Shown here piece by piece: positions 40,746 to 53,122 of a stretch of DNA of 64,000 nucleotides. The notes below the pieces were generated by a model, which saw only the letters and a program-made list of their open reading frames with translations, was not told the origin of the DNA and made no database searches. Every line of letters begins with the position of its first letter. Position 1 is the first letter of the stretch. The DNA is taken from positions 54,779-118,778 of the forward strand of contig JAPLRU010000099.1 in assembly GCA_026399025.1 (NCBI GenBank), given 5' to 3'. The position numbers and the translations under genes are program-made. This DNA comes from Methylobacter sp. (lineage in GTDB: Bacteria; Pseudomonadota; Gammaproteobacteria; Methylococcales; Methylomonadaceae).

Positions 40746-41474
40746 CTAAACAGCAATACCTACCTGCAAAGCGTCAAACCAGTCTAAAAACCGTTTGACA
40801 TCGTCACCTTTAAACATCCGTCCGTGCTGTGGAGCCAAAATATCAATATCAAGATTTCTGACCCGTTCAATCCAAACTCGCTTTGCCTGATTTGAGGGCA
40901 TCCAGCGCTGATGCCAGTAGCGCATTTTTTCAACATGCGCCGCAAAATTATCAACAAACACGGGAGTGTCGGGTGCTTCAATAGCGGCTCCGACATCGCC
41001 GGACATCAAAATCTTAGCTTGTGGATCATAAACATGAAAATTCCCGGATGAATGTAAATAATGCGCGGGAATAATCTGCAATTCCACTGACTCTAACTTA
41101 ATTGTCCCGCCATTATCCGGAATAGGAACATATTCTATTGATTCACAGCTGTAATGCCGTAAAAACCCCTCCCAGACAGCCGGCGCATGAAGCTTGGCAT
41201 TGGTTAAAGCCTGATCCCATAAGCCTAATGATGAAATAACGTCAGGATCTTGGTGCGAAGCAAACAAATCCGTTATTTGATCTACAGGGGCATGATGCAG
41301 CACCGCCGCCATCATCGGAGCGAACAGCTCAGCCCCGCCTGGATCCAGAAGTAGACAGCGGTTAGCCGTGCGAACTACATATTGGTTAGTGTCGACTATG
41401 TTACTGGGCTTACCTTCGTCCCTGCCAAACATAATCCATTGATGAGATCCTTCATATATTTTGGTCGTTTTCAT
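40746..41474 (-). CDS. MBL-fold diiron protein, ODP-like (oxygen-binding diiron protein)
   Basis: ASHQDPDVISSL, PAHYLHSSGNFHVYDPQAKILMSGDVGAAI, LAPQHGRMF; terminal gene of the che cluster. Confidence 0.75.
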   Translation of the reverse strand: MKTTKIYEGSHQWIMFGRDEGKPSNIVDTNQYVVRTANRCLLLDPGGAELFAPMMAAVLHHAPVDQITDLFASHQDPDVISSLGLWDQALTNAKLHAPAVWEGFLRHYSCESIEYVPIPDNGGTIKLESVELQIIPAHYLHSSGNFHVYDPQAKILMSGDVGAAIEAPDTPVFVDNFAAHVEKMRYWHQRWMPSNQAKRVWIERVRNLDIDILAPQHGRMFKGDDVKRFLDWFDALQVGIAV

Positions 41475-41506
41475 AAAAAACAATGTCTCCGATAATTAGC
41501 CGCTAT

Positions 41507-42115
41507 TCAACTATTGCGATAAATGGATAATGCGATTCTGCAACGCTGCACATTATCATGAATGGTATGTGCAGCTTTATCTACACTTTCGGCAACTGCC
41601 TGCAGACTTTGCAAATACTCACCGGCTTGTGACGCTTCAATTCTTGAGTTTGCGGCAATAACCCGCGCAGCCCGCGCATGATGCATCACAGCTTCAAGCT
41701 GGCCTAGCAGTTGCGAAACATCTCTTTTAAACTGCCTTTGGCAATCTTGCATTGAAAGCCTTGCATGATCTACAGGCCCTTGCATACTCTTAGCATAAAC
41801 AGCATCTCCAGCCATTTTCGCTGCCAACTCAAACTTATTATAAGCCGTTGTTTTTTGAAACTCGTCGACAGTCAACCGATATAATACTAATGCATATATA
41901 TTTATGTTAGTAACCAGTTCAATTGTTTCTTTAGCCAATTCGTTAATAAAGTCAGTAATTGGCTGAAACCCTTTTGCTTTATCCCCTGCTCTAAATGCAA
42001 TGGCCTTAGCATTCGCCGCCGCTAACGATATTTCCTTAGCCACCACCATAACCGCACTTAACTCCGAAGTAATAGAAGCAACTGCAATAAATTGCGATTT
42101 AGTCTGATTAGTCAT
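41507..42115 (-). CDS. MCP cytoplasmic-tip-like protein lacking a sensor domain
   Basis: AANAKAIAFRAGDKAKGFQPITDFINELAKETI resembles the MCP hairpin ([30 protein letters not shown]); second degenerate copy AANSRIEASQAGEYLQSLQAVAESV. Confidence 0.65.
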   Translation of the reverse strand: MTNQTKSQFIAVASITSELSAVMVVAKEISLAAANAKAIAFRAGDKAKGFQPITDFINELAKETIELVTNINIYALVLYRLTVDEFQKTTAYNKFELAAKMAGDAVYAKSMQGPVDHARLSMQDCQRQFKRDVSQLLGQLEAVMHHARAARVIAANSRIEASQAGEYLQSLQAVAESVDKAAHTIHDNVQRCRIALSIYRNS

Positions 42116-42245
42116 ATTTAATTACACTGCGTGAAAAGTGACATTTTTAGATTCTGTATTCAGTCCAATGTATCTAAAACGTATTGTGCTAAATACAGCC
42201 GTAAAAGGCTGGAAGATAATAAATCAAGAACCTTGGCAGCATTTT

Positions 42246-43367
42246 TTAATTAACCTTGCCGACACTGCTTGGCTTAACCAAGCTTAAAACTTTATTCGAA
42301 ACGTCTTCTAGCGATACCACATAATCAGTGCAGCCTAACTTGAAAGCAGCACCCGGCATTCCCCAAACCACACTCGATTGCTCATCCTGAATAACTGTTT
42401 TGGCTCCTGCGTCATGCATTTCTTTCATCCCCAATGCACCATCAGCCCCCATACCTGTTAATAACACGCCAACGGCATTGGCGCCCGCACATTGAGAGAC
42501 TGAGCGAAACAATACATCAACAGCAGGCTTATGTCGGTTGACAGGCAGACCATCACTCAAATGAATGATATACCTCCCGCCCTCTCTAACAACAAGCATA
42601 TGTCTATCACCGGGCGAAAGATAAATATTACCCACTTCAACAACCTGGCCATGCTTGGGAATACACGCTGACATTGCCGTTACAAGATCAATATGCCGAA
42701 CAAATGACTCACTAAATGCAGCAGGCAAATGTTGCGTTATTAAAATAGGTGGAGTATCAGATGGGAACCCTTTAACTACCGTTTTAATTGCTTCCGTTCC
42801 ACCTGTAGAAGCACCTAAAGCTATTATTTTACTACTGGTAGGATGGGCGTGTGTTCTTATCGGTTCCGGTTTCAGAATAACGTCGACTGAATGTCTGTCT
42901 GGGCTTTCAGGGGTAGCCGTTCCAGAGCTTTTAAGTTTAATCGCCCTATCATGAACAGCCCCTACTTTAGCTTGTGCAGCAACTATAACCTTGGAAATAA
43001 TTTCATCGGCGTACTCGTTAAGCGTATTAACAACATCAACCTTTGGTTTCGCAATAAAATCAACCGCACCTAAGGCTAAAGCATTTAAAGTAGCCTCCGC
43101 ACCATGTTCGGTTAACGTAGAAATCATCACGACCGGCGTAGGTCTTAAACGCATCAAATTACTTAAAAAAGTAATCCCGTCCATGTGGGGCATTTCAATG
43201 TCCAAAGTCAACACATCAGGATTCAATTGTTTAATCATTTCTCTAGCGATAAGAGGATCTGCTGCTGCACCGACTACCTCAATATCAGGCGACGCACTTA
43301 AAACTTCAGTCAGTATTTTCCTGATTAATGCCGAATCATCAATAACCAATACTCGTATCTTACCCAT
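42246..43367 (-). CDS. cheB: Chemotaxis glutamate methylesterase CheB
   Basis: Receiver plus methylesterase (IIALGASTGGTEAIKTVV, ITQHLPAAFSESF, LLTGMGADGALGM). Confidence 0.96.
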   Translation of the reverse strand: MGKIRVLVIDDSALIRKILTEVLSASPDIEVVGAAADPLIAREMIKQLNPDVLTLDIEMPHMDGITFLSNLMRLRPTPVVMISTLTEHGAEATLNALALGAVDFIAKPKVDVVNTLNEYADEIISKVIVAAQAKVGAVHDRAIKLKSSGTATPESPDRHSVDVILKPEPIRTHAHPTSSKIIALGASTGGTEAIKTVVKGFPSDTPPILITQHLPAAFSESFVRHIDLVTAMSACIPKHGQVVEVGNIYLSPGDRHMLVVREGGRYIIHLSDGLPVNRHKPAVDVLFRSVSQCAGANAVGVLLTGMGADGALGMKEMHDAGAKTVIQDEQSSVVWGMPGAAFKLGCTDYVVSLEDVSNKVLSLVKPSSVGKVN

Positions 43368-43383
43368 ACACCTACTCTAAAAG

Positions 43384-43430
43384 AAGTCCATCATCACCGT
43401 TAATTAGGTGCATTTTAAATGTTGTTGGTA
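43384..43430 (-). pseudogene. Fossil of the cheD 3' end upstream of cheB
   Basis: gtccatcatcaccgttaattaggtgcattttaaatgttgttg aligns with the real cheD end ctcaacatcaccctcaacaggcgcatttttaatattgttg at about 43979. Confidence 0.75.
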
Positions 43431-43540
43431 TCATTATTATTTTTAGCGATTACAATTTCCGGTACGCCCAATTCCGGTATCCTAAAGTTTTTTATGCCGT
43501 ACTTAGTCTTTATCCCATAACTTTCTGATTTTAAATATCA

Positions 43541-43960
43541 CTATTTAAGCCTTCTGATATTGGCTTGCGATGCTACTTTTACCTTGGCAATAATATCTTC
43601 GGCATAATCATTTAATGTATTTTCCACATCAATTGTCGGCTTTGCTATAAAATCTACCGCGCCTAACTCCAAGGCGGTTAAAGTAACTTCAGCATTACTT
43701 TCTGTAAGCACTGAAATCATTACAACAGGCATTGGCCTCAATCGCATCAAGTTGCGTAAAAAGGTTATCCCATCCATACGCGGCATTTCAATGTCCAAGG
43801 TCAATACATCAGGATTTAACTCCTTAATCATTTCTCTGGCAATAAGGGGATCTTCCGCTGTACCGACTACCTCAATGTCTGGAGATGAACTTAAAATCTC
43901 AGTCAGAACCTTTCTAATTAACAATGAATCATCAATGATCAATACGCGTATTTTATTCAT
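43541..43960 (-). CDS. CheB-type receiver domain only (truncated cheB paralogue)
   Basis: Nearly colinear with the first 139 aa of the neighbouring CheB; stops at the end of the receiver. Confidence 0.9.
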
Positions 43961-43969
43961 TATATACTC

Positions 43970-44608
43970 TTAAAAAAGCTCAACATCACCCTCAACAGGC
44001 GCATTTTTAATATTGTTGAAATACTGCCGCTCTCTTCTTATAATTGTTTCATTATGAATATGCTCGATTTTTTTCATCCCAACTTTTCCTGTTCGCGGAA
44101 AATAAATTATTTTTCTAGGATAAATGTCACCTAAGTCCTGAGATAACAGAGCCAATCCTTCTGTATCAATATATTCCAAAATAAAATCAATATTTTTAAG
44201 ACCCACATCAGTTAAGGTTGGAATAATTTTACCGCCGCCAAACACTTTAACTTCTAAATTTTTCCTTTTACCGCCGTTCATCAAAATGGTATTAATTAAA
44301 TGCTCCATCGCATAATTTCCGTAGCGAGTTGCGTTGCCGACCACTGCTTCGTTACCTTGCTTTAATTTATCGGCAGTAGTTTCCGGCAGCATAAAATGAT
44401 TCATTCCACCCAGACCAGACACTTTGTCTCTAATACATGCAGATATACAAGACCCTAATACGGTTGTAATCAATTCATCATCATGAGTGACATAGTATTC
44501 ACCGGGTAGAATTTTTGCGGCAATCACACCACGTTCTTTATCCACATATCTGTTGATGTGCTCAAAACCGTCGATAGAAGGTAGGCCAATATCATTGCTA
44601 GCACTCAT
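43970..44608 (-). CDS. cheD: Chemoreceptor glutamine deamidase CheD
   Basis: TTVLGSCISACIRDKVSGLGGMNHFMLPE, KVFGGGKI. Confidence 0.96.
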   Translation of the reverse strand: MSASNDIGLPSIDGFEHINRYVDKERGVIAAKILPGEYYVTHDDELITTVLGSCISACIRDKVSGLGGMNHFMLPETTADKLKQGNEAVVGNATRYGNYAMEHLINTILMNGGKRKNLEVKVFGGGKIIPTLTDVGLKNIDFILEYIDTEGLALLSQDLGDIYPRKIIYFPRTGKVGMKKIEHIHNETIIRRERQYFNNIKNAPVEGDVELF

Positions 44609-44614
44609 TTTTAT

Positions 44615-45454
44615 TTATGTATTTTTCCTGTAACTAGTACATGCAACCAACTCAAACTCATTTGAAAGCTGGTTTAATGATTCTGAATGTCCAATAAATA
44701 ACCATGATCTACTAGACAACATTTGAGCAAATCTTCGCGCTAACGATGTCTTGGTGTCACGATCAAAGTAAATTAAAACGTTGCGGCAAAAAATAAAATC
44801 AAAATGAGATTTCATCGGCCAATCTTGCATCAAGTTTAATTGTTTAAACTGAATAACTTGTTGTAAATGAGGCCTTACTTTTACTTGGCCGGATTGCGTT
44901 GATTTACCTCGCATAAACCACTGCTTCAGTGTACTTTCCGGCAAATCACTAACACGATCTTCGCTATAAATACCCTCGGATGCTGTTTGTAATACATTAG
45001 TGTCCAAATCAGTGGCTAAAATCTTAATATCCCAGTCAATGGGTACGTTCTCTAATAAAGTAATCGCCAAAGAATAAGGTTCTTCACCTGTAGAACAACC
45101 AGCTGACCATACCCTGATTTGCCGAGAACTTTTATTTCTAATCAAGACCTCTGGAATAACAACATCCCGAACATAGTCGAAATGATGTATTTCCCTAAAA
45201 AAAGCGGTAAGGTTGGTGGTTATGGCATTGATAAACTCAGTAAACTCACGCTCAGGATAATCCTTAAGATACTGACAATATTCCTTAAAATTTGCTAATC
45301 CAAGCTTCCTTATCCGCTTGGAAAGCCGTGAATAAAACATATCAAATCTTTCATCCGGCACCTGAATGCCTGAATGCTCATTGGATAATTTTCTTAAAAA
45401 ATTAAAATCATCGGCAGTGAATTTAAATTCGCGAACTTTCTCAACAATGGCCAT
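44615..45454 (-). CDS. cheR: Chemotaxis protein methyltransferase CheR
   Basis: LTAFFREIHHFDYV, IRVWSAGCSTGEEPYSLAITL, FDFIFCRNVLIYFD. Confidence 0.97.
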   Translation of the reverse strand: MAIVEKVREFKFTADDFNFLRKLSNEHSGIQVPDERFDMFYSRLSKRIRKLGLANFKEYCQYLKDYPEREFTEFINAITTNLTAFFREIHHFDYVRDVVIPEVLIRNKSSRQIRVWSAGCSTGEEPYSLAITLLENVPIDWDIKILATDLDTNVLQTASEGIYSEDRVSDLPESTLKQWFMRGKSTQSGQVKVRPHLQQVIQFKQLNLMQDWPMKSHFDFIFCRNVLIYFDRDTKTSLARRFAQMLSSRSWLFIGHSESLNQLSNEFELVACTSYRKNT

Positions 45455-45482
45455 GTTTAAACTATTTCCCTTTAATTAAACC

Positions 45483-46052
45483 TTACAGCTCGTGGACATC
45501 AAGTATGTCCAATAAACCTAGCAACTTGGCAGACTCAACGAATCGTGGGGATGGGTAAATAATAGTTACTTTTTTATGTAGCTTAACAACGTCTTTTTTT
45601 AAAGAAACAAGTAATTGCAATGTGGCAGTATCTATTGAAGAAACATCAGATGCATTTATCTCAATTTGATCATGCAAGGCCAATAACCTTTTTAATTTCT
45701 CGTATAACTTGACGACGTTCTGAATAGTCAATGTAGCATCTAAATCAATTAACGGTCCCTCTACTTCCTCGGAGGCAGATACATTAACACCTTCTGATAC
45801 CAGGGCAACATCGGTCGCATCTTCAAATGTAGCTTTTGTGGATTCAGCTTCTTCAGTTACATCCAAGGTGTCATTTTCTTGAATATTTAGCCTAAAATCA
45901 TCTGAGTTGTTAGCGCTTATGCTTGTTTGATTGTCAAAATCAACGCTGTCCATTACTAAATGATCTTCACCGTTTTCATCTTGATCGATATCGCCATCCA
46001 TCCAGGCCAGAGGATCATATCCAATTAAATCATTTTCTTTACTTGTTGCCAT
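45483..46052 (-). CDS. STAS-domain protein with an acidic N-terminal extension
   Basis: ASDVSSIDTATLQLLVSLKKDVVKLHKKVTIIYPSPRFVESAKLLGL. Confidence 0.8.
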   Translation of the reverse strand: MATSKENDLIGYDPLAWMDGDIDQDENGEDHLVMDSVDFDNQTSISANNSDDFRLNIQENDTLDVTEEAESTKATFEDATDVALVSEGVNVSASEEVEGPLIDLDATLTIQNVVKLYEKLKRLLALHDQIEINASDVSSIDTATLQLLVSLKKDVVKLHKKVTIIYPSPRFVESAKLLGLLDILDVHEL

Positions 46053-46815
46053 TCATCACCTTGCCTTCAAGAAAATCATGAGCAAGGCTACGAAAATCCC
46101 TTGCTGAACGACTTTTCGGACTATATTCTAAAATTGTTTTACCAAAACTGGGACATTCTGCAAGCAATGCCGTTTCTCTAATAACTGTCGATAATACTTG
46201 CTCAGGAAAATGCGTGAGTAAGACATTTAACACTTGCTTCGATATTCTTCTATTTGGCGAATACCGGGACATCACTAATAATGTCTTATATTTTTTCTTC
46301 AAAGCTTTTTCAAATCTCTTAATCGTTCCCATCAGATGAGACAGCCCTTGCAAGGCAAGAAAGTCGCTGGCCATAGGAATTAAAATTTCGTCAGCGGCAA
46401 TCAATGCATTTGCAACCAGTAATCCTGAAGATGGTGGGCAATCAATAAAAACAAAATCCTGATCATCAAGACCTTCATGCAAGGCGTCTTTTAGTAAAAC
46501 ACCACGAGGAGACGCTTTCCGACCAGCCAGATGCTCAATCTCCTTAAGCTTTCTCCCCGGTGTAATTAATTGTAAATTATCCCTGACCGGAATAAGTTGC
46601 TGATGAATCATTCTCTCTTTCAGCATAGCTTCATCAATTCCACCGTTACACTGTTCTGTAATACCTAAGGCAACGGCTAAATGACCTTGCGGATCAAGAT
46701 CGATAGCGGTAACTTTTGCGCCGGACTCTGCAATAGCATGACATAAGTTTGCCGTAGTCGTCGTCTTGCCAACACCACCTTTCTGGTTGATTATTGCGAC
46801 AATTCTCACTGTCAT
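46039..46815 (-). CDS. ParA/Soj family ATPase in the chemotaxis operon
   Basis: NQKGGVGKTTTTANLCHA, DLDPQGHLAVALG, FVFIDCPPSSG. Confidence 0.95.
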   Translation of the reverse strand: MTVRIVAIINQKGGVGKTTTTANLCHAIAESGAKVTAIDLDPQGHLAVALGITEQCNGGIDEAMLKERMIHQQLIPVRDNLQLITPGRKLKEIEHLAGRKASPRGVLLKDALHEGLDDQDFVFIDCPPSSGLLVANALIAADEILIPMASDFLALQGLSHLMGTIKRFEKALKKKYKTLLVMSRYSPNRRISKQVLNVLLTHFPEQVLSTVIRETALLAECPSFGKTILEYSPKSRSARDFRSLAHDFLEGKVMNGNK

Positions 46816-47303
46816 ACCAAACTTTCAATACCCTCAACTTCATCAGGGTTAAGTAATTTATCAACATCTAAGAGCATAATCATCTTTTTCTTATACACAT
46901 GCATGCCTCGCATGTAATGTGTATTAATTCTTGAGCCGAAATTTGGGGCTTTTTTGATCTCTTCCAGCTTAATGTCCAGCACATCAGAAACCGCATCGGC
47001 GACTATACCCATTACAAACTGGTTTTCACCATGCTCAACACAAAGCACAATCACTACCGTTTTAGGGGAATAATCACTGTGTTCCAAAGAAAAACGCTCA
47101 CGTAAATCGATAATAGGTACGACGGATCCGCGTAAATTCAAGACCCCTTTAACAAAAGCAGGCGTGTTCGGAATTATCCGAACAGCCTCCCAACCGCGAA
47201 TTTCTTGTACTTTCAAAATTTCAACCCCATACGCTTCGCCTGCGAGCTGGAAGGTAAGAAATTGCTCTACCCGACTATTATTTGACTGCACATCTGTTGT
47301 CAT
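46812..47303 (-). CDS. cheW: Chemotaxis coupling protein CheW (copy 2)
   Basis: YGVEILKVQEIRGWEAVRIIPNTPAFVKGVLNLRGSVVPIIDLRERF. Confidence 0.95.
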   Translation of the reverse strand: MTTDVQSNNSRVEQFLTFQLAGEAYGVEILKVQEIRGWEAVRIIPNTPAFVKGVLNLRGSVVPIIDLRERFSLEHSDYSPKTVVIVLCVEHGENQFVMGIVADAVSDVLDIKLEEIKKAPNFGSRINTHYMRGMHVYKKKMIMLLDVDKLLNPDEVEGIESLV

Positions 47304-47348
47304 TGTTATAGTTTCCTGTCGCTTATATGATTTGCAGCTTTAACAACA

Positions 47349-49682
47349 TTAAAATTCTTCCCATTCTTCGCTGCTATCGCTTTTGAATTTACTTGACGAT
47401 ACGTGGGCCGCAGGCTTCTTTGTTACTACTTTTGCTGACACTGCAGGTGCTTTACTGTGTCCAACCGGCTTACTTATTGCTGAAGCCCCCTTTGAATTGA
47501 CTCTAAAAAAACTAAGTAACTGAGTCATATTAGTAGATTGCTCGCTCATAGCAATACTGCCGGCGGCCGCCTGTTCAGCCAAAGCCGCATTTTGCTGAGT
47601 AATATCATCCATTTGAGCAACAGCTTGATTGACCTGTTCAATACCCGATGATTGCTCTGAGCTGGCGCTGGCGATATGCGCAACAATATCGCCAACTTTT
47701 GCTACGCTTTCGACAATTTCAGTTAATGCTACACCGGTTTCATTAACAAATGCCGTGCCGGCACGAACTTTCTGCACACTATTCTGGATCAGCTCATTAC
47801 TCTGCTGAGCTGCAGTTGCGCTTCGTTGAGCAAGATTGCGCACTTCGGTTGCAACAACAGAAAACCCACGTCCCTGCTCTCCTGCCCTGGCGGCTTCTAC
47901 AGATGCATTTAAGGCCAGCAAATTAGTTTGGAACGCAATTTCATCAATGACACCAATGATTTCGGCAATTTTATTACTACTTTCATTAATTTCCTGCATC
48001 GCAGCGATGGCCGACTTTACTACGCCACCACCTTTTTGGGCTAGTTGACTTGCTGAAGTCACCACTTCAGTCGCTTGAACTGTATTCTGCGCATTATTTT
48101 TTACGGTGCTGGCCAACTCTTCCATACTGGCTGCCGTTTCTTCCAGACTGGCCGCTTGTTGCTCAGCTCGATGCGACAAATTGTTATTACCACTGGCCAT
48201 TTCTTGCGATGAACTGTCTATGAAATCGGCTGCATCCCTAATCTGAATGATAAACTCACTAAGCTTTGCTAGAGTGCTGTTAATATTATTCTTGCATTCA
48301 GCATACACACCTTCATACTCATTAGTAATGGACGTAGTTAAATCACCTTCTGCCATATTTTCCATGACTCTGTTAACATCACTAAATACACTTTCAATAA
48401 CATCCGTTAATTCATTAATGCCGGATGACAACGCTTTTGTAAAGCCCTGTTTATCGTTTAATTTTATACGAGTGCTTAAGTCACCCGCTTTAACACCTTG
48501 TACCAATTGATCAATTTCTTGCTCAATTAAAACCTCATGAGTTCTATCCTGCCATTCAGCAACATACCCAATACGTTCGCTATTTTCACCATTAACAGGA
48601 CTTGCAATAATATTCATATGGCGCCCCCCAATGATCAGCTGGGATCTAATCGACTCTTGTGATTTCTCCAATACTCCAGTTTTAATTGTAGGATGATATA
48701 AATCAACATTAGAACCCATCAAGTTATCTGCAACAAAATGGGGTATCTGCTTGCGAATATCACTTTCTGCAGCCTTGAATAACTTCTGAACGCTGTCGTT
48801 CATGTAAATAATTTCAAAATTCTTATTCGCTACCATAACAGGAGATTGAACATTATCAAGAGCTTGAGTAATCCGCTTAGATTCAGCCAGACCTTGTTTA
48901 AAATCGGCTAAATCCAGACCCAGCTTGACCTCTATGCAATACAAACCACGCAAAAAATCGCCTAATTGATCTTCTCGATTCAAGTCCACCTTATTTGCGA
49001 AGACTCCGCCGCTCAGCCGGTAACAAACAGTAACTGCCGCTTCCAGCGTTTGCGATATGACTTTGGTCATATTAATGCTGAGAGCCGACGCCATCATAGT
49101 CAGCAAGGAAACACCCGTCAGCAAAGCGTATTCCTCTGCCAAAAACAATCGATACATCAAGAAAAAAATAGGAGCCAAAAAAGCCGTCATAACAAAAGTA
49201 TTTTTTTTCCAAATTGCAATTTCGCTAATAGACTTAAGCATAGCGGCTAATCCGGAAGGTCTTACTTTTGCTTCGCCCGCATTAATCTTCTTATACAACA
49301 ACTCAGCAGCCGGAATCAGATCACGCTTTGGCGGATGTCGAACGGAAAGGTACTCATGAACTTTTCCATTTTTAAAGATGGGCATAGCGTTTGCTTCAAC
49401 CCAATAATGATCGCCGTTCTTACACCTGTTTTTCACCACACCTTGCCAAGGCCTAAGCTTTTTTAGGGTTATCCACAAATCTTCATAAGCTGCCGCAGGC
49501 ATATCAGGATGACGAACAATGTTATGTTCCGCTCCTATTAACTCATCACGGGTAAAACCGCTGGTTTCAACAAATGCGTCATTAACGTAAGTAATACGCC
49601 CCATCAAATCAGTTCTTGAAACTAAGATGGTACCCTTTTTCAGAATGATTTCATTATTAGTTACAGGCATATTAATCTTCAT
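47349..49682 (-). CDS. Methyl-accepting chemotaxis protein, Aer-like PAS plus second PAS, C-terminal WxxF-type tail
   Basis: [43 protein letters not shown] tip [40 protein letters not shown]; ends SSEEWEEF. Confidence 0.93.
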
Positions 49683-49723
49683 GCCGACTTACCTCTCAAC
49701 CCATGACAAATACATTAAAACCA

Positions 49724-50296
49724 TTAGCTTTCAACCTGATCCAAGTCTTCCAGCTTCAATAACTTGTCGACATCAAGCAGCATCACCATACGTTCATTAA
49801 CAGAGACCAGTCCATTGATAAACTCGTTACTTACTTTAGTTCCAAAGTCAGGGGCACCTTGGATTTCAGTTTTATCCACACTAATGACATCGGAAACGGA
49901 ATCAACTACCACACCCATTATACGGGGCTTGTTACTGTCTCCGGTTTGCAACACCACTACTACCGTTAACGGTGTATATTCAGCTTTACTTAAATTAAAT
50001 CTTTCCCTCAAATCGAGAATCGGCACAATGGAACCGCGTAAATTAACAACACCTTTTTCATAGCAGGGGACATTAGGTATTCTGGAAACAGGTTCCCAGC
50101 TTCGAATTTCCTGCACTCGAAGAATATCAACACCATATTCTTCTCTGCCTAATGCAAAACTCAGGTACTGCACAGCATTATCCAAGTTTTTACTATAGTG
50201 ATATTGGTCAATATCTTTGTTTTCAGCTTCTTGTGCCATATCTGCTTTATGTATAGTGTTATCGAATTGAAAAACGTACCAAACCTGGAACATCAA
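49724..50296 (-). CDS. cheW: Chemotaxis coupling protein CheW (copy 1)
   Basis: YGVDILRVQEIRSWEPVSRIPNVPCYEKGVVNLRGSIVPILDLRERF; true start may be internal. Confidence 0.94.
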   Translation of the reverse strand: MMFQVWYVFQFDNTIHKADMAQEAENKDIDQYHYSKNLDNAVQYLSFALGREEYGVDILRVQEIRSWEPVSRIPNVPCYEKGVVNLRGSIVPILDLRERFNLSKAEYTPLTVVVVLQTGDSNKPRIMGVVVDSVSDVISVDKTEIQGAPDFGTKVSNEFINGLVSVNERMVMLLDVDKLLKLEDLDQVES

Positions 50297-52364
50297 GAAT
50301 CAGCGCAACAGAACCGTCACCTAAGATAGTTGCACCTGAAACGCCTTCTACCCGTCGATAATTTGCTTCCAATGATTTAATAACAACCTGCTGTTGACCT
50401 AATAACTCATCTACTAGTAAGCAACACAACTCACCCTGTCCCTCGACGACGACAAGAACACCTTCCTTTGACTTTGTCGGATTGCCCGAATGCACATTGA
50501 AAATTCTGCGCATTCTAATAACCGGCAAATACTCATTGCGTAACCGGAAAGTTTCCCCTTTACCGGCCACTTTATTCAACATTCTTTCCGTAATGTTAAT
50601 GGATTCAATAATAGAAACTAGTGGGACAATGTAGGTCTCATCACCCACAGCAACAGATTGACCGTCAAGAATAGCCAAGGTTAACGGTAAATGAATTGCT
50701 ATAGTCGTACCCTTACCCAATTCTGAAATAATTTCTATATTCCCACCCAATGACAGGATGTTTCTTCTTACCACATCCATGCCCACTCCTCGACCGGAAA
50801 TATCAGTAAGCTGCTCGGCTGTAGAAAAACCCGGCATGAAGATGAGCTCAAATATTTGCTTTTCGGTAAGGATACTATTTTCTTCAACCAACCCTTTTTC
50901 TATAGCCTTTGATAGCAGTTTATCTTTATCCAATCCGCGTCCATCATCAATAATTTCTATGACGATGTGACCGCCCCGATGATAAGCTTTTAACTCTATA
51001 GTTCCTGTTTCGGATTTACCGGCCGCCACTCTGTCTGCCGGCATTTCAATACCATGATCCAAACTGTTTCTAATTAAGTGAACCAACGGGTCATTGATTA
51101 ACTCAACGACTGCTTTATCGACTTCGGTATTTTCTCCAACCAGTTTCAGTACAATCTTCTTATCTAATTTACTACTGATGTCATGCACTAAACGAGGAAA
51201 ACGACTAAAAACAAAGCTAATCGGCAACATCCGAATATTCATGACACTTTGTTGTAAATCCCGCGTATGTCTTTCTAACTGGGCAAGCCCTCTTTTAAGC
51301 TGACCGACCTTATCCATGCTAAAGTTTTCGCCAACTAAACCCAGCATGGACTGTGTTATCACAACTTCGCCGACCATATTAATGAGAGTATCGATTTTGT
51401 CCGTATCGACTCGGATCGAACTGGCTTTTGCCATGGCTTTCGCCGCTTCATTATCGGAGTCTTGAGTATCGGATTTTTTTATTTCTGCCGCCACCTTGGG
51501 TTTGGCTTCAGCAGACTTAGGAGAGGGATTACTGGGAAGAACTAGTTCAAGAGGTTCAGGATCAATTATTTTAGCAACAGGGGCTGATTTTATAGGCTTG
51601 GCAAGCGGCTGAATTTCCATTTCACAGTCGCCTTCAACCCAATTGAATATTTCTCTGATATCGTCGCCGGAAATATCCCCAACAACTTTTAAATCCCAAG
51701 AAATATTGCATTCCTCTGGATCTAATTCATAAAAAGCAGGAACATCTTGAATATTAACAATCGTTGTGAGCTCGCCCAGCTCATTTAATTCTCGAAATAG
51801 CCTAACAGGGTCATTGCCGGTTTTAAGCAAATCCAAATAAGGACAAAAGGCTATTTTCCAACCCTGCTCTTCCAAGTCTCCGGATTCCTCTTCAGGAATG
51901 TCAGGAGCCGCATTGACAACAACAGATTCACTTGCAGGTTTGTGCTCAACTTGAGGTACTGACTCATCCATTGAACCGCCATTAAGCACAATCTCTAAAG
52001 CTGCTTTATGCTTAGCGACGCTACTATTATTAACATCCCGTTCATTCTGTATCGCAGTCAACATTTCTCTAAGGCAATCAACAGACCCAAGCAAAACATC
52101 TACCGCAGGCTGGGTCACCTTTCTACGTCCATCCCGCATCTCATCAAGCAAGGTTTCCATAATATGGGTGTATTCAGCAACAACGGTAAAGCCAAAAGTT
52201 CCACTGCCGCCCTTTATCGAATGAGCCCCCCTAAAAATAGTATTGATTATTTCTGAATCAATATCCCCCATATCGAGAGTTAACAATCCTGACTCCATTG
52301 CTTCCAGTCCTTCGAAACATTCTTCAAAAAAGACCTGATGGAATTGTGACATATCAATAGACAT
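50259..52364 (-). CDS. cheA: Chemotaxis histidine kinase CheA
   Basis: HPt RGAHSIKGGSGTFGF, dimerisation and kinase domain (LIRNSLDHGIEMP), ISGRGVGMDVVRRNI, CheW-like C-terminus. Confidence 0.97.
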   Translation of the reverse strand: MSIDMSQFHQVFFEECFEGLEAMESGLLTLDMGDIDSEIINTIFRGAHSIKGGSGTFGFTVVAEYTHIMETLLDEMRDGRRKVTQPAVDVLLGSVDCLREMLTAIQNERDVNNSSVAKHKAALEIVLNGGSMDESVPQVEHKPASESVVVNAAPDIPEEESGDLEEQGWKIAFCPYLDLLKTGNDPVRLFRELNELGELTTIVNIQDVPAFYELDPEECNISWDLKVVGDISGDDIREIFNWVEGDCEMEIQPLAKPIKSAPVAKIIDPEPLELVLPSNPSPKSAEAKPKVAAEIKKSDTQDSDNEAAKAMAKASSIRVDTDKIDTLINMVGEVVITQSMLGLVGENFSMDKVGQLKRGLAQLERHTRDLQQSVMNIRMLPISFVFSRFPRLVHDISSKLDKKIVLKLVGENTEVDKAVVELINDPLVHLIRNSLDHGIEMPADRVAAGKSETGTIELKAYHRGGHIVIEIIDDGRGLDKDKLLSKAIEKGLVEENSILTEKQIFELIFMPGFSTAEQLTDISGRGVGMDVVRRNILSLGGNIEIISELGKGTTIAIHLPLTLAILDGQSVAVGDETYIVPLVSIIESINITERMLNKVAGKGETFRLRNEYLPVIRMRRIFNVHSGNPTKSKEGVLVVVEGQGELCCLLVDELLGQQQVVIKSLEANYRRVEGVSGATILGDGSVALILDVPGLVRFSIR

Positions 52365-52565
52365 AGACTTACCTGTGTGCGCCTAAACTTATTTAAACAA
52401 GATTAACAATTAACCTAAACTTTCTTGGGTCCTTGTCCGGATAAACACCTAAACCATTCATCTAAGCATTCAAATAAAGCAGCATGAAAAAACGGGACAA
52501 ATCAATAAACAAAAGACAAAAACTTTCTTGCATGCGCTTAACACATTTAGGCACGATAATATCAA

Positions 52566-52940
52566 TTAACCCAAAACTTTTAATAATGTTTTTAATAACT
52601 GATCAGGATTGAACGGTTTAACCATCCATCCTGTTGCACCGGCTGCTTTACCTTCTTGCTTTTTTTCGATCCCTGATTCAGTAGTCAGCATCAGCATGGG
52701 GATAAATTTATAGTCTGGAAGTGCTCGTAAATCTCTAATTAAAGTGATTCCGTCTTTATTTGGCATATTAACATCAGTTACCACGCAGTCAAATTTCCTA
52801 GTTTGCGCTTTTTCTAAAGCATCAACTCCATCTACCGCCTCTTCGACATCGTATCCAGCAGCTCTTAAAGTAAATGAAACCATTTTTCTCATTGAAGCTG
52901 AATCGTCAACTGCAAGAATACTTGCCATTGTTTTCTCCAT
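52566..52940 (-). CDS. cheY: Chemotaxis response regulator CheY
   Basis: ILAVDDSASMRKMVSFTLRAAGY, VVTDVNMPNKDGITL, GWMVKPFNPDQL. Confidence 0.93.
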   Translation of the reverse strand: MEKTMASILAVDDSASMRKMVSFTLRAAGYDVEEAVDGVDALEKAQTRKFDCVVTDVNMPNKDGITLIRDLRALPDYKFIPMLMLTTESGIEKKQEGKAAGATGWMVKPFNPDQLLKTLLKVLG

Positions 52941-53080: not shown

Positions 53081-53117
53081 AAAAAAACACCCCACTAGAG
53101 AAAACCCCTAGCAGGGT
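53081..53117 (-). terminator. Rho-independent terminator downstream of tRNA-Leu
   Basis: Minus strand accctgctag ... ctagtggggt followed by gttttttt. Confidence 0.75.
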
Positions 53118-53122
53118 ATATT

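Follow-up and report, generated by a model that had tools for sequence, protein, structure and literature searches.

A short double-tip protein and an oxygen-binding diiron protein as a putative split chemoreceptor in a Methylobacter F7 chemosensory cluster

The window analysed here is a stretch of 64,000 nt from Methylobacter sp. (contig JAPLRU010000099.1, assembly GCA_026399025.1). It contains a chemotaxis gene cluster (40746-52940) whose last two genes encode a 202-aa protein, which we call TIP, and an oxygen-binding diiron protein (ODP). Together TIP and ODP probably form one split, soluble chemoreceptor that has been appended to a chemosensory cluster of the F7 stage 1 type in Methylococcales (we put the probability of this reading at about 0.7). 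ODP would be the sensor, reporting oxygen and ferrous iron by way of an oxygen-binding diiron site, and TIP the transducer, a short four-helix bundle imitating the CheA/CheW-binding end of a receptor dimer and thereby controlling CheA. In most Gammaproteobacteria the lone pair would plug into whichever array the cell has; in Methylococcales, where F7 stage 1 clusters carry the pair together with an Aer2-like receptor, it would feed oxygen/iron signals to the F7 CheA.

ODP and its 5' partner

The two genes are located as follows:

41507..42115, minus strand: TIP, 202-aa soluble double-tip protein, 5' partner of ODP, with a weak MCPsignal match
40746..41483, minus strand: ODP, oxygen-binding diiron protein (predicted binding), PF19583 E 1.9e-71; start codon ATG at 41474 (likelier) or TTG at 41483

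The terminal metallo-beta-lactamase (MBL) gene had been proposed to encode an ODP in an earlier reading of the sequence alone (the sequence-only reading). The protein matches PF19583 with 240 bits against a cut-off of 27; as the Pfam ODP model also matches flavodiiron proteins, ODP matches were judged by bit score together with gene neighbours. Solved ODP relatives include the chemotaxis sensor ODPs of Treponema and Thermotoga, among them a peroxy diiron species, 6r9n (PMC7319448). The nearest solved structures by phmmer are 6qrq (E 4.5e-62) and 6qnm (E 7.4e-54), and a fold search with an 80% identical relative (L044) gave template-modelling (TM) scores of 0.89-0.90 to 6qrq and 6r9n. The window ODP is 98% identical to the ODP of a Methylobacter metagenome-assembled genome. 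It has all the candidate diiron ligands (H77, D79, D81, H141/H144, D163 and H220), residues whose roles we assume from knowledge of flavodiiron proteins. Among 84 ODP relatives H77, D79, D81, H141 and H144 are invariant, H220 is found in all except one gapped row, and D163 is found in 75. The protein thus does not group with unrelated hydrolases, its diiron ligand set is complete and it is co-conserved with a chemotaxis component, so its identification as an ODP stands; binding of metal and oxygen by the window protein is predicted from these residues. In nine of the 84 relatives (L026-L028, L030-L033, L035 and L048) Asp163 is replaced by Ser, Gly147 by Cys and Asp47 by Glu or Gln. This group is mostly found within the same type of F7 cluster, and may represent a natural change of the diiron site that shifts the sensed signal. 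ODP relatives were not found in a scan of viral contigs.

We surveyed ODP in 80 loci from GTDB genomes, labelling the neighbouring genes; 78 loci had enough upstream DNA. A TIP homologue lies directly 5' of ODP and on the same strand in all 78 of these gammaproteobacterial loci, usually overlapping ODP or less than 80 bp away from it. In the reverse survey, a profile of TIP alone was run on 274 gammaproteobacterial genomes and gave 22 copies in 19 genomes, with ODP as the next gene in 22 out of 22 cases. By this two-way linkage ODP is genetically coupled to a sensorless receptor. Homologues of the core chemotaxis genes (cheA, cheW, cheR, cheB and cheD) are absent from the examined flanks in 55 of the 78 loci. 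Among Methylobacter-type and Methylomonas-type genomes, 23 loci have the pair together with F7 genes. The conserved unit is therefore the TIP-ODP pair, not the cluster, and parA-STAS-cheD, the set earlier put forward for a neighbourhood survey with ODP, was not supported as its partner: the conserved partner is the 202-aa TIP, and ParA varies even in close Methylococcales (it is absent in L034, L043 and L047). The same pair is held by annotated plasmid records, as a 'chemotaxis protein' or 'hypothetical protein' with an 'MBL fold metallo-hydrolase'. Four ODPs are encoded in the window genome, three of them as TIP-ODP pairs in three separate che clusters. In the Colwellia-like loci L064, L074, L085 and L092, the pair sits between genes that fit, by length only, an ATP synthase operon and glmU/glmS.

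Since TIP is only about 30% identical between distant species and its Pfam score is weak, it might be taken for a decayed pseudogene fragment of a methyl-accepting chemotaxis protein (MCP) lying beside ODP. We give this almost no credence: the frame of TIP is kept in 78 out of 78 loci, both of its halves have near-invariant positions, and the evolutionary distances of TIP and ODP co-vary (r 0.78). On this conservation we rejected both a pseudogene and a chance neighbour.

The ODP tree (a quick build, with long branches in some rows) contains four groups, each on one side of a single branch with support 97-99: 39 rows are TIP-linked, 18 are Roadblock/LC7-linked, four are GGDEF-EAL-linked, and four have no identified signalling partner. 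Given one partner type per clade, ODP behaves in this tree as a sensor that gained different transducers. Roadblock/LC7-type proteins flank ODP in another class of Pseudomonadota (L100-L111, L113, L114, L117, L118, L120 and L125), possibly an MglB-like signalling link. A GGDEF-EAL gene adjoins the fourth ODP of the window genome (L008 9321-12277, G000 C97), and a protein of this kind adjoins ODP in L112, L115 and L116 as well; these ODPs have their own clade, and oxygen control of cyclic di-GMP is likely for them. The fold of ODP is that of flavodiiron proteins, which would also suit an enzyme mainly scavenging oxygen or nitric oxide, with its neighbours only placing it near the arrays. This is very improbable: ODP lacks both a flavin domain and a neighbouring gene for an electron donor, published descriptions of the family are of sensors, one member having been solved as the peroxy species mentioned above (6r9n, PMC7319448), and the partners in the TIP, Roadblock and GGDEF clades are signalling proteins.

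Architecture of TIP

As a single protein TIP matches MCPsignal weakly (E 1.1e-4, below the curated cut-off); the TIP family profile matches solved receptor tips (3g6b, E 5.7e-12; 4jpb and 3ur1, E about 4e-11). TIP is a duplicated tip: residues 17-70 and 138-191 align over 54 columns with no gap (hhalign P 3e-5), and in the alignment of each half to the MCP tip the AGE turn is in register. AlphaFold predicts four helices (2-47, 50-102, 108-161 and 165-201) with a predicted local distance difference test (pLDDT) of 93.5 and a predicted TM score (pTM) of 0.84. The best results of a structure search were weak matches to single-chain four-helix bundles (TM about 0.45), as expected because natural MCP dimers are two chains. 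With two hairpins in each chain, TIP offers what an MCP homodimer offers with two chains, and so it reads, in sequence profiles and in the predicted model, as one chain imitating the signalling end of a receptor dimer.

The halves of TIP have diverged from each other. We placed the presumed trimer-contact positions N381, E385 and R388 by Escherichia coli Tsr numbering, from general knowledge. Half 1 keeps the N381-equivalent (51/51 letters) and the R388-equivalent (47/53), and half 2 keeps the E385-equivalent (50/53), i.e. the conserved trimer-contact residues are divided between the halves. The pair 42-160 is high in mutual information, but there are only about 37 effective sequences, too few to prove contacts. 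We see roughly even odds that TIP is an asymmetric single-chain receptor, whose halves are fixed in the two environments of a trimer of dimers and whose input is a separate metalloprotein, ODP. For the docking of the two proteins we modelled relatives with TIP and ODP in one frame, read through the stop codon as a chain of 467 residues. The model (pLDDT 90.6, pTM 0.83, low only in the linker and the first residues; DSSP merges helices 1 and 2) is consistent with a defined TIP-ODP arrangement.

Several observations weigh against TIP-ODP as a receptor of this cluster. The pair lies away from che genes in most species, and the 130-bp gap 5' of TIP in the window could give room for a separate promoter. 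The read-through model is cis-linked, has an artificial residue per stop codon, and does not make the interface error visible. In half 1, two of the four CheW/CheA-binding positions defined in Thermotoga maritima TM1143 (PMC5706961) are altered (the L365-equivalent is K/S/A and the A368-equivalent is K/R). Partial loss of the trimer and CheW contacts, together with helices of only 37-54 residues, would also fit a different role, in which TIP forms no core units but competes for CheA/CheW as a decoy or array modifier and, with ODP loaded, loosens or caps arrays; the CheA of Treponema denticola is reported to be more ordered once ODP is removed (PMC7666581). We find such a role distinctly unlikely for TIP, which has kept the most conserved residues of receptor tips (the N381, R388 and E385 equivalents); this suggests that it still docks in the core unit.

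The F7 stage 1 cluster and a ParA-linked peptide

The sequence-only reading had described thirteen consecutive minus-strand genes of chemotaxis type, and this description is correct: all 13 open reading frames (ORFs) are found in 40746-52940, and the Pfam/NCBIfam names agree (CheA, CheW, PAS-PAS-HAMP-MCP, CheW, ParA (AAA_31), STAS, CheR, CheD, receiver only, CheB and ODP). Besides TIP and ODP, the features are:

53087..53119, minus strand: terminator-like hairpin upstream of cheY, after the preceding gene (15-pair stem and T run; consensus match only)
52566..52940, minus strand: cheY (ORF and sequence; matches among related loci)
50259..52364, minus strand: cheA (PRK10547 CheA, E 4.3e-187)
49724..50296, minus strand: first cheW (ORF; CheW label by homology among related loci)
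47349..49682, minus strand: Aer2-like F7 receptor (Aer-type PAS, hydrophobic segments (163, 185), Aer2-type PAS, HAMP, MCP domain, EWEEF end)
46812..47303, minus strand: second cheW (PF01584, E 2.4e-35)
46039..46815, minus strand: parA-like ATPase (deviant Walker A KGGVGKTT; PF13614, E 3.1e-43; 8ray ParA, E 4.5e-43)
45483..46052, minus strand: STAS protein with a long, variable, acidic N-terminal region (PF13466 at residues 102-180)
45999..46022, minus strand: GYDPLAWM codons at the STAS N terminus, candidate ParA-recruitment peptide (linkage to parA)
44615..45454, minus strand: cheR (PF01739, E 5.1e-66)
43970..44608, minus strand: cheD (NF010013 CheD, 261.7 bits, above cut-off)
43541..43960, minus strand: receiver-only duplicate of the CheB receiver (NCBIfam CheB PRK00742, receiver part only)
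42246..43367, minus strand: cheB, receiver and methylesterase (PF01339, PF00072)

The wider gaps are between cheY and cheA (201 bp), the receiver gene and cheB (173 bp), and cheB and TIP (130 bp), with 23-32 bp between TIP and ODP; the remaining genes overlap or are less than 50 bp apart, and a search of the minus-strand gaps between the 13 genes for terminator-like matches found none. The full gene order is found again in nine Methylobacter-type loci, so the arrangement is not due to chance. The receiver-only CheB copy is found in L016-L021 and L023-L025 and in none of the other che-type loci, i.e. only in Methylobacter-type clusters; it could serve as a phosphate sink.

By its gene content and core order we take the cluster to be the form in which Methylobacter has the F7 stage 1 chemosensory system, for which the order STAS/cheY/cheA/cheW/aer2/cheW/cheR/cheD/cheB/mcpA/STAS/phosphatase is given (Ortega et al. 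2020, PMC7184735). The window shares the core order, with cheY, cheA, two cheW genes, an aer2-like receptor with its pentapeptide, STAS, cheR, cheD and cheB, but it lacks the mcpA-STAS-phosphatase end and adds parA, the CheB-receiver duplicate and TIP-ODP. The missing end is found, whole or in part, in L041, L043, L046 and L047. L047 (Methylotuvimicrobium buryatense), which retains mcpA and the second STAS, has the order cheB-mcpA-STAS-REC/ATPase-TIP-ODP; from this order, TIP-ODP seems to have joined a stage 1 cluster at its 3' end, with the mcpA end lost later in the window lineage.

The receptor had been called an Aer-like PAS-PAS protein, and structure-profile matches agree: the first PAS domain resembles Aer (31cj, E 2.1e-85; 8dik) and the second resembles Aer2 (3vol, E 4.1e-43; 4hi4). 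The protein matches NF041847 (Aer2) with 456 bits over 265-777, and hydropathy indicates two hydrophobic segments between the PAS domains. Its C-terminal EWEEF fits the F7 pentapeptide x-[HFYW]-x2-[HFYW], and a matching end is present in all che-type relatives whose receptor end was read.

The cluster had also been proposed to be a dedicated oxygen/redox taxis pathway. Given a real ODP with its diiron ligands and the Aer/Aer2-like PAS domains, an oxygen/iron input is the best inference, and this part of the proposal is kept. A dedicated aerotaxis pathway is doubtful and was not adopted, because the function of F7 at stages 1 and 2 is described as unclear; F7 hosts often run the flagellum with F6 (PMC7184735). 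The window genome encodes flagellins, flhA and several CheAs, and a search of it for CheZ found none. The methane/ammonia monooxygenase subunit A family is matched twice in it, in keeping with a Methylobacter-like methanotroph. TIP-ODP might also serve mainly another array of the cell, its position in the F7 cluster reflecting co-expression only. The 55 loci without core che genes nearby and the several other CheAs of the genome argue for this, as does the report that McpA-like receptors of F7 clusters enter F6 arrays (PMC7184735); the association of the pair with F7 genes in the 23 Methylobacter- and Methylomonas-type loci argues against it, as do the two paralogous pairs in two further che clusters. 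We consider service to another array a serious but rather unlikely alternative to the split receptor of the F7 array.

The cluster encodes a ParA ATPase without ParB, as expected of the PpfA/ParC type, and ParA had been suggested to position the array. The variable acidic N-terminal region of the STAS protein opens with a fixed peptide, IG[YF]DPLAWM, which is present in the window and in 19 out of 19 relatives that have ParA (two with one substitution), and absent in three out of three relatives that lack it. We searched the DNA of 369 gammaproteobacterial genomes with the pattern G[YF]DPLAW[ML], using the reversed pattern as a control: 11 matches were found, against 0 for the control, and all 11 are the N terminus of the gene immediately after a chemotaxis parA (L162-L172). 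The carriers are two STAS proteins and nine MCPs with no transmembrane-like segment in the part read. Two of these MCPs were scanned for domains: one has globin and PAS, and the other PAS and HAMP. The former (L170 1474-3023) is another soluble receptor of oxygen type linked to ParA. In a second sample (399 Pseudomonadota genomes) the window was the sole match. As the carrier species are relatives, the matches do not count as independent events. A literature search found no relevant text on the G[YF]DPLAWM peptide.

In Rhodobacter sphaeroides the soluble receptor TlpT uses its N terminus to contact the ParA protein PpfA (PMC5706961, PMC7993993). By this analogy the STAS peptide may well be an address for ParA, by which the STAS protein would recruit ParA and position the complex. 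PpfA-TlpT and the ParC-ParP system of Vibrio likewise combine a ParA of the che cluster with a partner making contact through its N terminus; unlike in these systems, the candidate partner here is a STAS protein with G[YF]DPLAWM, and other Gammaproteobacteria carry the peptide on soluble MCPs. ParP is an unlikely partner, because the second CheW is an ordinary 163-aa CheW. The suggested positioning by ParA thus gains a putative partner; it is weakened by the peptide lacking the positive charge typical of known ParA activators, in a STAS N terminus that is acidic (several of the MCP carriers are lysine-rich). Shared by MCP and STAS carriers, the peptide points to an address for ParA that can be moved from one kind of carrier to the other.

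Relation to known receptors

The ODP of T. denticola is coupled to a CheA-modulating receptor that has neither transmembrane nor sensing modules, and when ODP is lost the ordering of CheA in the array changes (PMC7666581). Coupling to sensorless receptors in more than one gene order, ODP operons with MCP genes, and ODPs with other signalling genes have also been reported (PMC7666581, PMC7319448, PMC6978683). The T. denticola pair TDE2498/TDE2496 (Muok et al. 2019, via citing papers) and TIP-ODP have in common the ODP family and a genetically coupled sensorless receptor. They differ in that TIP (compared with TDE2496 by description only) has only about 200 aa and a duplicated tip, and in that the pair belongs to an F7 cluster in Methylococcales but stands by itself in other groups. 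Natural single-chain MCPs are known, their function being described as unknown, and an engineered Tsr~Tsr signals if its linker is long enough (PMC4692393). Like TIP, single-chain MCPs have two MCP signalling hairpins per chain; TIP differs from them in its much smaller length, in the divergence of its halves and in having a fixed sensor partner.

The coupling of ODP to a sensorless receptor and the existence of natural single-chain MCPs are thus already published. As far as the literature found goes, the new elements are the ParA peptide and the short, diverged double-tip receptor, which is strictly partnered with an entire ODP clade and which methanotrophs have in their F7 clusters. The structure of ancestral F7 arrays is known, but their function is not; an ODP attached to them in methanotrophs makes the input testable, in a group in which the array has been imaged (Methylomicrobium alcaliphilum, of the same group as L047, is one of four imaged species; PMC7184735). 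TIP is a large conserved family of putative single-chain receptors with a fixed sensor partner, an evolved counterpart of the engineered single-chain receptors built to separate the inner and outer receptor subunits. If the asymmetric single-chain reading holds, TIP would be a receptor unit of unusually small size, and many arrays, those of F7 included, could take it up as a plug-in input for oxygen/iron.

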